A stretch of 52,022 bases of DNA from Bdellovibrio sp. ZAP7. Its GTDB lineage: Bacteria > Bdellovibrionota > UBA1018 > CAIMNF01. Positions 1 through 26,086 of the stretch are shown one piece after another. The notes below the pieces were generated by a model. That model was not told the DNA's origin. It made no database searches and saw nothing but the letters and a program-made list of their open reading frames with translations. The stretch spans positions 1 to 52,022 of the forward strand of contig CAMCGZ010000016.1 in NCBI GenBank assembly GCA_945874535.1, read 5' to 3'. The first letter of the stretch is position 1, and each line of letters opens with the position of its first letter. Made by a program: the position numbers and the translations under genes.

Positions 1-141
1 AGTGCACTGTTCTCCTTTTCCCTCTGCGCAGGCTTTTTGGCACTGCTCATCGCAGGCGCAGTCTCCGGCAAAAGTGGCCACCGGGGCAAAGGCCAAGAGA
101 TTCGAGAGGAAGATCGCATTCAAGAGGTTTCGTTTTTTCAT
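1..141 (-). CDS. Small Cys-rich secreted protein (partial, C-terminus outside window)
   Basis: An open frame runs from an ATG at 141 to the window edge, giving 47 codons without a stop. It starts MKKRNLL, has a hydrophobic core and a likely signal-peptidase site after VATFA near residue 25. The mature part opens with GDCACDEQC and has five cysteines in 19 residues. It follows the permease stop by 18 bp on the same strand, so it is probably the last gene seen of that operon. Cysteine spacing suggests disulfides or metal binding after export; no family is recognised. Seen: signal peptide and Cys pattern. Inferred: exported small protein. Confidence 0.6.
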   Translation of the reverse strand, partial: MKKRNLLNAIFLSNLLAFAPVATFAGDCACDEQCQKACAEGKGEQCT

Positions 142-7650: not shown

Positions 7651-8430
7651 TCAGTCGTCGATCTCGACGCACAGTTCAGGGCTCGGGACCCAATACAGTG
7701 CCTGCCCGTTAGCGCAACCGGTGGGGCTTGCAGAAACCGTGTTACCGGTATTTTTATTACAGCAGTAACCGAAATCGGTTTGCGTGACCGTTTCAGTCTC
7801 AGTCAAGGTTTGAGTGAGGGTCTGGGTTGAGGTGAGGGTCTGGGTTGAGGTGAGGGTACTGGTTTCGGTGCTCGTCTGTGTGCTCGTCTGGGTTTCGGTT
7901 CGGGTGAGCGTGATTGTCCGGTCATCTCCGGCCCGGCAATGACGAATCCAGAGCCAGGTCACGACTCCGGCTGCGAGAATTCCCGCCACGATCCAGATCA
8001 AGCGCTGATTGGGTTTACCACCACCTGCGAATTGGGCCCCTTCCGGATGGCGCTTTTCCATGAATCGAGAAGCCATATCGGCTGCCTGTTCGGGTGTGAT
8101 CGAATCCGGATCGATCGAGCCAAGCCAGAAACCGAAGTCTTCGCGTGTTTCACGATCCAGCATTTGCTGCTTCAGATGTTCCAGAATCGTCCAGGCAGGG
8201 ATCCCTTCGGTCGTCAGACGTTCGAGGTCTTGCTTGAATGCTTCTGCCGCTTGTGCGCGGTCAGCTGAGGTGAAGGATGGCATCACGCTCAGTCGGTATC
8301 GGAAATTCTCGAATGCCTCCGAGATTTTTGTGGCATGGCTTTCGTCACCGGCACGGGCTAGCCCGGAATTCAAAGTGCTTCCGCCTAGAATCAACATCAG
8401 TATCAGAATCGGACTCAGTAGTTTCTGCAT
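7651..8430 (-). CDS. Membrane protein with a 48-residue alternating Thr-X tract
   Basis: The protein has 259 residues: a signal peptide (1-27), a helical domain (about 28-130), one membrane helix (144-162), a tract at 172-219 in which every second residue is Thr for 24 consecutive dipeptides, and a short Cys-containing tail (C223, C224, C239, C254). No family is recognised. The tract would make an extended strand with one all-Thr face and could be a stalk or an O-glycosylation substrate. With a cleaved signal peptide and Arg residues just after the helix, however, the tract would be predicted cytoplasmic. A purine-rich site precedes the ATG at 8430. The GT-C gene lies 90 bp downstream. Confidence 0.75.
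   Translation of the reverse strand: MQKLLSPILILMLILGGSTLNSGLARAGDESHATKISEAFENFRYRLSVMPSFTSADRAQAAEAFKQDLERLTTEGIPAWTILEHLKQQMLDRETREDFGFWLGSIDPDSITPEQAADMASRFMEKRHPEGAQFAGGGKPNQRLIWIVAGILAAGVVTWLWIRHCRAGDDRTITLTRTETQTSTQTSTETSTLTSTQTLTSTQTLTQTLTETETVTQTDFGYCCNKNTGNTVSASPTGCANGQALYWVPSPELCVEIDD
7774..7917 (-). repeat. Low-complexity Thr-X coding tract
   Basis: These 48 codons alternate Thr (ACN) with Gln, Ser, Leu, Glu, Val, Ile, Arg or Asp. The Thr codons are varied, so selection at protein level is more likely than recent slippage, except in the embedded 18 bp tandem. Confidence 0.85.
7816..7869. repeat. 18 bp tandem repeat inside the Thr-X tract
   Basis: Two identical 18 bp units (7816-7833 and 7834-7851) are followed by a diverged third (7852-7869). 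Each unit encodes six residues in frame, so copy-number changes would lengthen or shorten the tract without a frameshift. Confidence 0.85.
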
Positions 8431-8612: not shown

Positions 8613-9869
8613 ATGATCAAACCGAGAATTCCAGAAAGTGAAGCCGATCGGATCCGCACTCTCGAGGAATACGGAATTCTCGATACTCCACCCGAGCCGG
8701 AGTTCGATGCTCTCACTGAGCTCGCATCCAGCATTCTCGGAGTGCCGATCGCACTGGTGAGCCTGGTGGATCGCGACCGTCAGTGGTTCAAATCGAAAGT
8801 GGGCCTGCCGATTTCGCAAACCGCTCGTGAAGTTTCATTTTGCGGTCATGCCATCTTGGAAGACGATGTGTTTGTCGTGGAGGACGCAGGAACCGACGAA
8901 CGCTTTCATGACAATCCGCTCGTCCTGAGTGACCCGCAGATCCGGTTCTATGCGGGAGCTCCTCTTCGTGCCTGGAATGGTGAAGCCATCGGGACTCTGT
9001 GTGTGATCGACCGGAAGCCGCAAAAGATTGACGAGGACAAAAGGCGCGCACTTCGCACTCTTGCAAACATGGTGGTGACCCAGCTCGAGTTAAAACGGAA
9101 AAACCGCGAGCTGACGGTGGCACTCGAAACCATCGAACAACAGAAATCGGGATTGATCCACAACTCGAAGATGTCCGCTCTCGGTGAGATGGCGGGTGGA
9201 ATGGCCCATGAGATCAACAATCCGCTCACCATCATTTCGGGACATGCATCCCGCATTGCGATGTTGCTGAAGACCCCCGAGAATGCAGATCGCAATGGCC
9301 GCCTGGAGTCCGCTGTGGCCGGGATCGGTAAAGGAGTGGAACGGATTTCTACCATCATCCGCGGATTGCAGTTGTTTTCGCGGGATGGAGCCGGCGATTC
9401 GCACGAAAACTGCGATCTCCGGCAAGTGGTGCGCGATTCGCTGGGGCTTTGTCAGGAGAATTTGTACAATCTCGGAATCCAGCTCCGTTATGAAATGCCC
9501 GAAGTTCCGATGATGGTGCGTTGCCGGCCCACCCAGATCTCCCAGATCCTGGTGAACCTCCTGAATAACGCAAAAGATGCCATCAAAACCCAGGAAACTG
9601 AGCGTTGGATCAGAATCGATCTTTTCATGCACGGGTCGGATATCCTGCTCCGGGTGAGGGATTCCGGAACCGGAATCCCGGAGGAGTTGCGATACCGGAT
9701 CTTCGAGCCGTTTTTTTCCACCAAGGCTCCCGGAAGCGGTACCGGTCTCGGACTCAGTGTCTCGAGATCCCTGGCGATCGCCAATCAGGCGGAACTCGAT
9801 CTTTGTTACAAGACTGGACCCACCTGTTTCCAGGTCCGCTTCACTGCCGGAACAGCTGAAACACCCTGA
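8613..9869 (+). CDS. Cytoplasmic GAF-domain sensor histidine kinase
   Basis: The protein has 418 residues and no membrane segment. A GAF domain spans about residues 25-160 (with the DTPPEPEFD and FYAGAPL features of this GAF-kinase type). A dimerisation helix follows with the phospho-acceptor H199 in [11 protein letters not shown], then an HATPase domain with an N box (NNAKDA), a DSGTGIP box and a GTGLGLS box. It should autophosphorylate in response to a cytoplasmic ligand or redox signal; no response regulator is adjacent, so the partner is unknown. It is transcribed alone, probably as a leaderless message. The last 29 bp overlap the convergent methyltransferase gene. Confidence 0.92.
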
Positions 9870-10569
9870 CTTTCCGTTTGCGCTCGAGACGGTGCTCGGG
9901 AATCGCCGAGCTCTCCTCGACGTCGTACTCGAACTCCACGCGGTGGAACCCCTGGTTTTCGAACTCACTGAGCGCTTGGTTCAGATAGCTTCTGCCCGGA
10001 TCCGCCAAGATGATGAATCCTTTTTCAGGAATGAGTCGGATCAAGGCCCGGACAAGGTCGGCCGGGTGACGGCTCTCGTAGAGGACATCGCTCGCCAGGA
10101 CAAAGTCGAAGGGACCCTTCGATAACAAAGTCCCGGGAACAGGGGTGGTCCAGTCCCAGGTCAGGTAATCGACTTTCACCTGATTCAGTTCGGTGTTTTT
10201 ATCGAGCCAGTGTCCGGCATCGGGATGAAAGTCCGCTGCCGTCATGGCGGCCCCGAGTTTCGCTCCGATTATCGAGTTCAGACCCAGTCCACAACCGATT
10301 TCAATGCCTCTTTTCTTTGAAAATAGCGATTTTTGCTCACTCATGAAGAGTCCGAGCGCCCGAGCGGAGGGCCAAACCGTAGCAAAATAGGGGCAGAGGT
10401 CGAGTAGACGCGTTTCCTCTTCGGGGCTGGCTGGCGGATGGGCTTTGCAGATTTCATCGAGTGCCCGGTCCATGTCCCGGATCGACCAGAGATGAATCGG
10501 AAAGGTGCCGATTTTCTCGATCGTGGTGATCATGTCATATTCGATGAGCGGTACTGGGAGGGTTCTCAC
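9841..10569 (-). CDS. SAM-dependent methyltransferase (METTL21/nicotinamide N-methyltransferase-like)
   Basis: The protein has 242 residues from a GTG at 10569. The class I Rossmann motif I is GIEIGCGLGLNS, motif II includes AADFHP, and DFVLASDVLYE resembles the post-II region of the METTL21-like protein-lysine methyltransferases, with LATVWPSA-type residues before motif I. A substrate cannot be named. The GTG start is supported by a TTGTAT-17-TACAAT promoter ending 6 nt before it; an in-frame ATG at 10533 has no ribosome site. The 3' end overlaps the histidine kinase gene by 29 bp. Confidence 0.82.
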   Translation of the reverse strand: MRTLPVPLIEYDMITTIEKIGTFPIHLWSIRDMDRALDEICKAHPPASPEEETRLLDLCPYFATVWPSARALGLFMSEQKSLFSKKRGIEIGCGLGLNSIIGAKLGAAMTAADFHPDAGHWLDKNTELNQVKVDYLTWDWTTPVPGTLLSKGPFDFVLASDVLYESRHPADLVRALIRLIPEKGFIILADPGRSYLNQALSEFENQGFHRVEFEYDVEESSAIPEHRLERKRKVRVFQLFRQ

Positions 10570-10575
10570 TCCGTC

Positions 10576-10604
10576 ATTGTAATGGAAAGAGCCTCCCGAT
10601 ACAA
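10576..10604 (-). promoter_or_regulatory. Promoter for the methyltransferase, face to face with the EamA promoter
   Basis: TTGTAT (10599-10604), 17 bp, TACAAT (10576-10581), then 6 nt to GTG 10569. Its -10 box overlaps the -35 box of the plus-strand promoter, and its -35 box overlaps that promoter's -10 box. Confidence 0.5.
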
Positions 10605-10605
10605 A
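10577..10605 (+). promoter_or_regulatory. Promoter for the EamA transporter, face to face with the methyltransferase promoter
   Basis: TTGTAA (10577-10582), 17 bp, TACAAA (10600-10605), then 6 nt to ATG 10612. RNA polymerase can occupy this site in only one direction at a time, so the two genes should be expressed in competition. Confidence 0.5.
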
Positions 10606-10611
10606 TAGAGC

Positions 10612-11493
10612 ATGGGATCTTTCCTGGTTGTTCTCTCCGCCTTCGGCTTCGCGACGCTCGGAATTTACGGCAAATTCGCCTACGATGCCGGATTCGGACG
10701 GAACGAGGCTCTCTTCTGGCGCTTCGGTCTCTCTTTGCCCTTTTTGGCGGTACTGTTGGCAGTGACCCGTTCTTTCCCGAAGCGCTCATCGCCTTTCCTG
10801 AAGGCCATCGTTTTGGGAATGGTGGGGATCGGGGTCGAATCGTCGGTTTTTTTCATCACACTTCAAAGGCTCGGAGCCGCCCTGACGGGGATCTTCCTTT
10901 ACCTTTATCCGGCGTTCGTCGCATTGATCTCTCACTTCTTCCTCGGTGAACGGCTCAGTCGGGGAAAAGGGTGGGGCGTCGTACTCGCCCTGGTCGGAAG
11001 TGTGCTCACCGCGGGGGTGGTGGGCGGGGCCGCTACGGGCATGGTTTCGCCTCTCGAGGATCCGGTCGGCCTGTTGTTCGGTGTCATCACCGGGGGGTGG
11101 TACGCTCTCTACATCCTTGCAGGAAACCGGCTGACCCGTGACGAGAATCCGCTCACCGTGAGTGCGGGTGTCACCTTGGGGAGTTTCATCACTTTTGCGA
11201 CTTTGACCGCAATCGGGGTCGGGCAAGGGGACTCCTTCAACGGTGTCACGGGCCGTGAGTCCTGGATTGCCGTCGGAGGCCTGGCCCTTTTTGCCACTGT
11301 GCTTCCCTTCACGACATTGTATGCGGGGATGAAGCGCACCGGAGCGGTCAAGGCCTCTTTGCTTTCGACTCTCGAACTGGTCTTCACGGTGATCCTCGCC
11401 GCAGTCTTCCTTGGCGAAAAATTGACACCCTGGCAGGGGGTCGGAGCAGTTTTGATCCTACTTTCTGTTTTACTCGCTTCGATCCTTCGTTGA
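10612..11493 (+). CDS. EamA/DMT-family transporter
   Basis: This 293-residue inner-membrane protein has about ten helices in two homologous EamA halves, each ending with a GE-L-x-W/G pattern (FFLGERLSRGKGWGVVLALVGSVL and FLGEKLTPWQGVGAVLILLSVLL). The family exports or exchanges small metabolites; the substrate is not predictable. The probable leaderless promoter overlaps that of the divergent methyltransferase. The acyltransferase gene begins 10 bp downstream, so this may be the first gene of a transporter-acyltransferase-gpsA-mscS operon. Confidence 0.88.
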   Translation: MGSFLVVLSAFGFATLGIYGKFAYDAGFGRNEALFWRFGLSLPFLAVLLAVTRSFPKRSSPFLKAIVLGMVGIGVESSVFFITLQRLGAALTGIFLYLYPAFVALISHFFLGERLSRGKGWGVVLALVGSVLTAGVVGGAATGMVSPLEDPVGLLFGVITGGWYALYILAGNRLTRDENPLTVSAGVTLGSFITFATLTAIGVGQGDSFNGVTGRESWIAVGGLALFATVLPFTTLYAGMKRTGAVKASLLSTLELVFTVILAAVFLGEKLTPWQGVGAVLILLSVLLASILR

Positions 11494-25213: not shown

Positions 25214-26005
25214 TCAGAGCCCGAAACCGCACTTTTTAATCAGGAATTGATCGAATTCGGGGTCGGAAGGGAATAGGAATTCGACTTCGGAACGCTCGTC
25301 CTGGTTGAATAAAAGTGAAGAGGGGATTTTGCAGGACAGTGATCCTTTGCTAATCGTGGCGGTGGTGTTCAGGCGCGGGTCACCCCCGCGTTTGTCCACT
25401 CGGAGCAATACTCCGGTTCCCTGGTAGCGGACCCGGGCGAATTTGCGTTTGAAGCGGTCAGGCTGAAGATCGATCGGGGCTGTCTCCTGAAGGACTCCGC
25501 CGACTATTTCACAAGTCTCCCCATTCACATCCATCGTTTCGCCGGTAGGAAGCGTTACCCGGATTTGCGATCCTTGGCCCGGCAGTGTGTTCCACTCGAT
25601 TGCTGGCAGCACTTTGCGGGGGAAGAGGAACAAATAGCTCTCCATGAGTTGTGACAGGTACTCATTGGGGGCGTCTGTGATGGACAAAAAGATGTTCTGT
25701 CGAGCACGGCTTTGAAAGTGGAAACCAAAAGTCCTATCCGGACCCATTCCTGGCTCCGACTTCCTTGGGACGATCCGATTCGCTCCCTCATTGAAGAAAC
25801 TGAACCCGACCACCGCTCCTGTCGATTCTTCTACGGAGATTTGGTAGGGACCCTCGGTCGAGGGTGCGATATTCAGCGTGTCGCCGGGCTTTCCGGGGAT
25901 CATCTTGTCCCGCTCCGGTGCACTCAGCACAGACTCGGGAGCGGGGTCGCCAGCGAGGGAGTAGGCAGGTACCGAGACCAGGATGAAGAGCAAGAGGGGC
26001 CGCAT
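25214..26005 (-). CDS. Secreted protein of unknown function
   Basis: I do not recognise this 263-residue protein. It has a signal peptide ending near SLA (residue 18) and then a largely beta-rich body with few cysteines (one pair of possible interest: CEIV and SLSCKIP) and a third Cys close to the C-terminus (KKCGFGL). It should be periplasmic or outer-membrane associated. Transcription is predicted from a perfect TTGACA box, and the start codon lies 9 nt past the -10 box without a ribosome site. It is divergent from the dicarboxylate symporter gene; nothing else hints at function. Confidence 0.75.
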   Translation of the reverse strand: MRPLLLFILVSVPAYSLAGDPAPESVLSAPERDKMIPGKPGDTLNIAPSTEGPYQISVEESTGAVVGFSFFNEGANRIVPRKSEPGMGPDRTFGFHFQSRARQNIFLSITDAPNEYLSQLMESYLFLFPRKVLPAIEWNTLPGQGSQIRVTLPTGETMDVNGETCEIVGGVLQETAPIDLQPDRFKRKFARVRYQGTGVLLRVDKRGGDPRLNTTATISKGSLSCKIPSSLLFNQDERSEVEFLFPSDPEFDQFLIKKCGFGL

Positions 26006-26014
26006 GATTTGCGA

Positions 26015-26043
26015 AAATTAACACATCGCGTTATATCTGTCAA
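26015..26043 (-). promoter_or_regulatory. Sigma-70 promoter giving a near-leaderless mRNA
   Basis: A perfect TTGACA (26038-26043), 17 bp, TAATTT (26015-26020) on the minus strand, then 9 nt to ATG 26005. The leader would be about 3 nt and the upstream bases contain no Shine-Dalgarno sequence. Confidence 0.5.
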
Positions 26044-26051
26044 GTTGAAGA

Positions 26052-26080
26052 TTGTATCCCATGCGCCTTTCCGCTACGCT
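26052..26080 (+). promoter_or_regulatory. Sigma-70-like promoter giving a leaderless symporter mRNA
   Basis: TTGTAT (26052-26057), exactly 17 bp, TACGCT (26075-26080), then 6 nt to ATG 26087. It lies back to back with the promoter of the divergent secreted-protein gene. Confidence 0.42.
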
Positions 26081-26086
26081 CCGCGC

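Follow-up and report, generated by a model that had tools for sequence, protein, structure and literature searches.

A compact intergenic gap with a predicted pair of overlapping, divergent leaderless promoters in a Bdellovibrionota genome

The bidirectional promoters of Escherichia coli and Salmonella described by Warman, Grainger and colleagues share a -10 element, have transcription starts 7-25 bp apart, usually 18, and allow one binding event to exclude the other (PMC12825309, PMC10268837). In Mycobacterium tuberculosis, the divergent genes lysG and lysE have overlapping -10/-35 motifs with an inverted repeat in the middle of a 108-bp gap, which lies next to the regulator gene and contains an operator of the LysR type (PMC5648196). 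Zheng et al. (2011) read the signal TANNNT, about 10-12 bp upstream of the start, as the mark of leaderless genes and report it for 8 of 33 delta-Proteobacteria; their survey lists these bacteria as a group without naming Bdellovibrio, and paired promoters that share boxes are not addressed in the portion of the paper considered here (PMC3160421). Here, we analysed the gap between the divergent genes of a methyltransferase dependent on S-adenosylmethionine (SAM) and an EamA-family transporter of Bdellovibrio sp. ZAP7. The gap lies on contig 16 of a 2.4-Mb Bdellovibrionota metagenome-assembled genome (G000), and the window is the whole stretch analysed, 52,022 nucleotides of that contig. It is probable that this gap is a compact overlapping divergent pair of housekeeping-sigma promoters, each giving an mRNA whose 5' end would lie at its start codon or no more than 1-2 nt away from it.

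As in the E. coli and Salmonella class, one binding event would exclude the other at this locus. However, each -10 box here overlaps a -35 box, the predicted starts are about 43 bp apart and both mRNAs are predicted to be leaderless, so that the gap falls outside the definition by a shared -10 and a 7-25 bp distance. As at lysG/lysE, the genes are divergent, the -10/-35 motifs overlap and an inverted repeat lies in the middle, but the gap is 42 bp, with no regulator gene and no regulon site. As in the survey of Zheng et al., a -10 box stands at the leaderless distance before many genes. Overlapping divergent promoters are already known, and this gap is a tight, conserved variant, more compact than lysG/lysE.

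Layout and conservation of the gap

As shown in Table 1, the 42-nt gap (positions 10570-10611) carries a predicted -35 and -10 box on each strand. The spacer is 17 nt in both promoters, which share the 30-bp unit 10576-10605. Each -10 box overlaps the opposite -35 box by 5 bp, as expected of overlapping divergent promoters, and this overlap is conserved; the two -10 boxes are 18 bp apart. The boxes, the spacers, the shared 30 bp and the 6-nt distances to both starts were read from the sequence exactly as a preliminary description had given them. That description had called the promoters face to face, a name that has to be corrected, as transcription is divergent and it is the promoter cores that overlap. 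Among 200,000 shuffles of the gap that preserved its dinucleotides, none gave the strict two-strand layout and 21 gave a loose one (TTG-16..18-TA, 5-9 nt from both ends). The 2.4-Mb genome contains the exact dyad TTGTA-N18-TACAA a single time.

Table 1. Positions in the window of the two genes, the predicted promoter boxes and the adjoining conserved motif
Feature	Positions	Strand	Remarks
SAM-dependent methyltransferase gene, PF10294/PF13489 type	9841-10569	-	GTG start 10569-10567
Predicted methyltransferase -10, TACAAT	10576-10581 (read 10581-10576)	-	6 nt to GTG; invariant in seven genomes
Predicted EamA -35, TTGTAA	10577-10582	+	overlaps minus-strand -10; invariant in seven genomes
TGGA beside minus-strand -10	10583-10586		invariant in seven genomes; outside both hexamers; unexplained by the boxes
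Predicted methyltransferase -35, TTGTAT	10599-10604 (read 10604-10599)	-	overlaps plus-strand -10; TTGTAT in six genomes, TTGTAA in L004
Predicted EamA -10, TACAAA	10600-10605	+	context CG[A/T]TACAAAT; 6 nt to ATG; without the usual final T
EamA-family (PF00892) transporter gene	10612-11493	+	ATG at 10612

The divergent methyltransferase/EamA pair is kept in nine other genomes of the genus, and the gap was compared across seven genomes (G000, G001, G003, G006, G008, G009 and G011). Six gaps (L003-L008) contain ATTGTAATGGA and CG[A/T]TACAAAT at an unchanged mutual distance; those of L006 and L007 are identical, so that the seven genomes have six distinct gap sequences. TACAAAT and the CG preceding it are invariant in all seven genomes. 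The box positions are 20-21/21 identical, while fourfold-degenerate sites of the EamA gene are 24-49% identical. In comparisons between clades, 2-5 of the 10 spacer positions and 0-2 of the 5 positions preceding the ATG are unchanged. The conservation of the boxes while the fourfold sites, the spacer and the start-proximal bases diverge indicates that the boxes are under selection. Loss of the symmetric boxes from orthologous gaps had been named in the preliminary description as a result that would speak against it; they are intact in all six relatives that retain the compact gap sequence. The EamA -10 box lies 6 bases from its start throughout, and that of the methyltransferase 6 or 8; the identity of these bases is not kept, and no Shine-Dalgarno sequence was seen. 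A distance kept without its sequence is expected of a start site set by the -10 box and not of a ribosome site.

The locus was also compared with the 54 further leaderless promoters for which G001 has an ortholog. It was identical at 23 of 29 positions, tied fourth of 55 (median 15), and both of its hexamers are identical between G000 and G001. As a group, compact divergent promoters showed no significantly higher conservation than the remaining leaderless ones (17.3 vs 16.0 of 29, P = 0.19).

In the most different genomes (L009-L011), the gaps are rewritten and a -10 box again precedes each gene by 6-10 nt. The overlapping geometry persists in L009 with different boxes (inner distance 19), while the gaps of L010 and L011 are wider (28 and 31, respectively). 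Both promoters of L011 are nearer to consensus (11.8 and 8.8), and stronger boxes in a wider gap would fit a cost of sharing boxes.

An EamA ortholog was not found in L012 (G007) and L013 (G012). Judged by eye, the methyltransferase gene in both is directly divergent to the acyltransferase gene across a long and ordinary gap, an arrangement suggesting insertion or loss of EamA together with the compact promoter.

Leaderless signal in the host genome

Genes were called by codon score alone, with the upstream signal unused, in 1.25 Mb (about half) of G000, giving 1138 genes. TANNNT was found at 6, 7, 8 and 9 nt before the start in 60, 36, 16 and 26 genes, respectively, against 8.4 expected per position. 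At the same distances, the relative G001 had 40, 22, 20 and 23 genes, respectively, against a background of 8.1. A Shine-Dalgarno peak at 5-11 nt coexists with the TANNNT signal in G000. Alignment of the G000 promoters on the hexamer brought out a TTG that fits a 17-nt spacer, as well as a G at the second base upstream of the -10 box. About 9% of the genes of G000, and roughly 7-9% across G000 and G001, look leaderless. Judged from these sequence signals, leaderless expression seems to be a common mode in this little-studied Bdellovibrionota genus.

The methyltransferase gene has TACAAT at 6 nt (8 nt in L006-L008), no Shine-Dalgarno sequence and a conserved start, as a leaderless gene should, and its leaderless reading is well supported. 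A GTG or ATG stands at this start position in the orthologs of L001-L008, L010 and L012. A start at the in-frame ATG of codon 13 was rejected because the GTG/ATG position is conserved and the residues upstream of that ATG align. The EamA gene is likely to be leaderless: its -10 box stands at the right position, no Shine-Dalgarno sequence was found and the ATG aligns at residue 1 in all orthologs, but the hexamer TACAAA is without the final T of TANNNT.

Among 179 divergent gene pairs of G000, both genes have a leaderless promoter in 14, where control distances gave 0-3; in five of these 14 the inner distance between the -10 boxes is -2 to 22. Four other divergent pairs in this half of the genome have two leaderless -10 boxes at an inner distance similar to that of the present gap (14-22 bp). 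Within the sampled half of G000, the present gap alone combines exact reciprocal overlap with a TTG in each -35 box. We propose only tentatively, and with more doubt than confidence, a lineage-wide class of minimal bidirectional promoters with reciprocal -35/-10 overlap, leaderless on both sides, which would fit divergent genes into about 39-47 bp and have each hexamer held by two functions.

Two further divergent gaps were observed. At 26005-26086 of the window, a second divergent leaderless pair has TTGACA-17-TAATTT and TTGTAT-17-TACGCT in an 81-nt gap, with well-separated -10 boxes. Another compact divergent gap of 58 nt (G000 C11:19005-19064) carries TTGCCT-17-TAGACT on the minus strand, is identical at 37/37 nt in G006 and 29/37 in G001, and at C11:19005, like the present gap with its TGGA, has a short motif, TTCCAT, just upstream of a -10 box.

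Proposed mechanism and alternative readings

The gap most likely holds a single polymerase site that can be used in either orientation, which would give two leaderless mRNAs. Holoenzyme bound in one orientation would use 10599-10604 as its -35 and 10576-10581 as its -10 box and transcribe the methyltransferase gene. Bound in the other, it would use 10577-10582 and 10600-10605, respectively, and transcribe the EamA gene, probably with the downstream acyltransferase and gpsA genes. An operon headed by the EamA gene is probable, because the acyltransferase gene begins 10 nt past the end of the EamA gene. As each box would serve both directions, one polymerase at a time could occupy the site and each base would be constrained twice. 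RNA polymerase covers far more than 30 bp, so exclusion would be inevitable if both promoters work. Mutual exclusion would thus follow from sterics, and within the gap only the 5-bp box overlaps imply it. At five tested E. coli bidirectional promoters, basal firing was too rare for the two directions to compete unless one of them was activated (PMC12825309). The gap offers a clean natural experiment on whether two promoters remain active when each lends its hexamers to the other, and on polymerase competition without leader RNA or an obvious regulator. Its long conservation supplies built-in variants, namely seven genomes in which the boxes are shared and three whose gaps are rewritten.

Each box pair matches the E. 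coli consensus at a mediocre 8 of 12 positions, for which reason a generic sigma-70 scanner reported neither promoter. Both were scored with a matrix trained on G000 leaderless promoters, this locus excluded. The methyltransferase promoter scored 6.5, ordinary for a leaderless promoter (0.18% of random positions score higher), while the EamA promoter scored 3.3 (1.7% of random positions higher; below 98.5% of the training set) because of the final A of TACAAA. Several points weigh against a pair of working promoters. The plus-strand -10 box is without the final T that nearly all G000 leaderless promoters have, and genome-wide TA...A shows almost no excess 6-7 nt before starts, although a small excess is seen for TA...[ACG] with TTG at 17 nt (6 cases against about 0.8 expected). 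The matrix is itself partly circular, its training set being limited to TA...T promoters, so that the low plus-strand score is partly built in. In addition, the invariant TGGA has no role in the boxes. The preliminary description was thus supported in part, in its predicted leaderless promoters on both sides, its shared boxes and the conservation of these boxes in orthologous gaps; the plus-strand -10 box is substandard for this genome.

These scores would suit a promoter that works one way only, with typical minus-strand boxes and a poor plus-strand -10 box. The methyltransferase promoter alone would then be real, transcription of EamA would start elsewhere or come from leaky initiation, and most of the TTGTA symmetry would be incidental. 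We consider this unlikely, as the conserved block extends past the minus-strand -35 box to CG (10597-10598) and AT (10605-10606), which only a plus-strand element needs. The 6-nt distance to the EamA ATG is also constant in the seven genomes, and EamA has a clear -10 box at 10 nt in L009 and at 6 nt in L011.

The unusually strict conservation, TGGA included, and the dyad symmetry would also be expected if TTGTA-N18-TACAA were an operator, overlapping the promoters, at which a dimeric regulator controlled the two genes, much as the overlapping divergent promoters of M. tuberculosis lysG/lysE surround an inverted repeat bound by LysG (PMC5648196). However, the dyad is unique in the genome and its variable-gap versions show no excess (11 vs 9 for the control). 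The symmetry is confined to TTGTA, neither gene encodes a regulator and the arrangement is not that of a LysR-type divergent operator, which makes an operator quite improbable. A BirA/biotin operator in particular was rejected, as no BPL_C or BioB (BATS) domain was found in the genome and the dyad is not enriched.

Attack-phase promoters of Bdellovibrio bacteriovorus read TTAAG-N16-CCGATA (PMC3627812). It is very improbable that the EamA gene is transcribed by a FliA-type sigma-28 through CCGATA (10596-10601) and the methyltransferase gene by the housekeeping sigma factor: CCGATA equals that attack-phase -10 element and is present in five of the six distinct conserved gaps, and the G000 genome has FliA, but no sigma-28 -35 element lies at the right distance, L004 reads TCGTTA, L009-L011 are without CCGATA and the genome has few copies of the full motif (3 sites).

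Other features of the window

A histidine kinase gene on the plus strand overlaps the minus-strand methyltransferase gene tail to tail by 29 bp (9841-9869). At 7651-8430, the window encodes a short protein with a hydrophobic segment followed by a long repeat tail rich in Thr, Gln, Glu and Ser (TSTQTSTETSTLTSTQ...).
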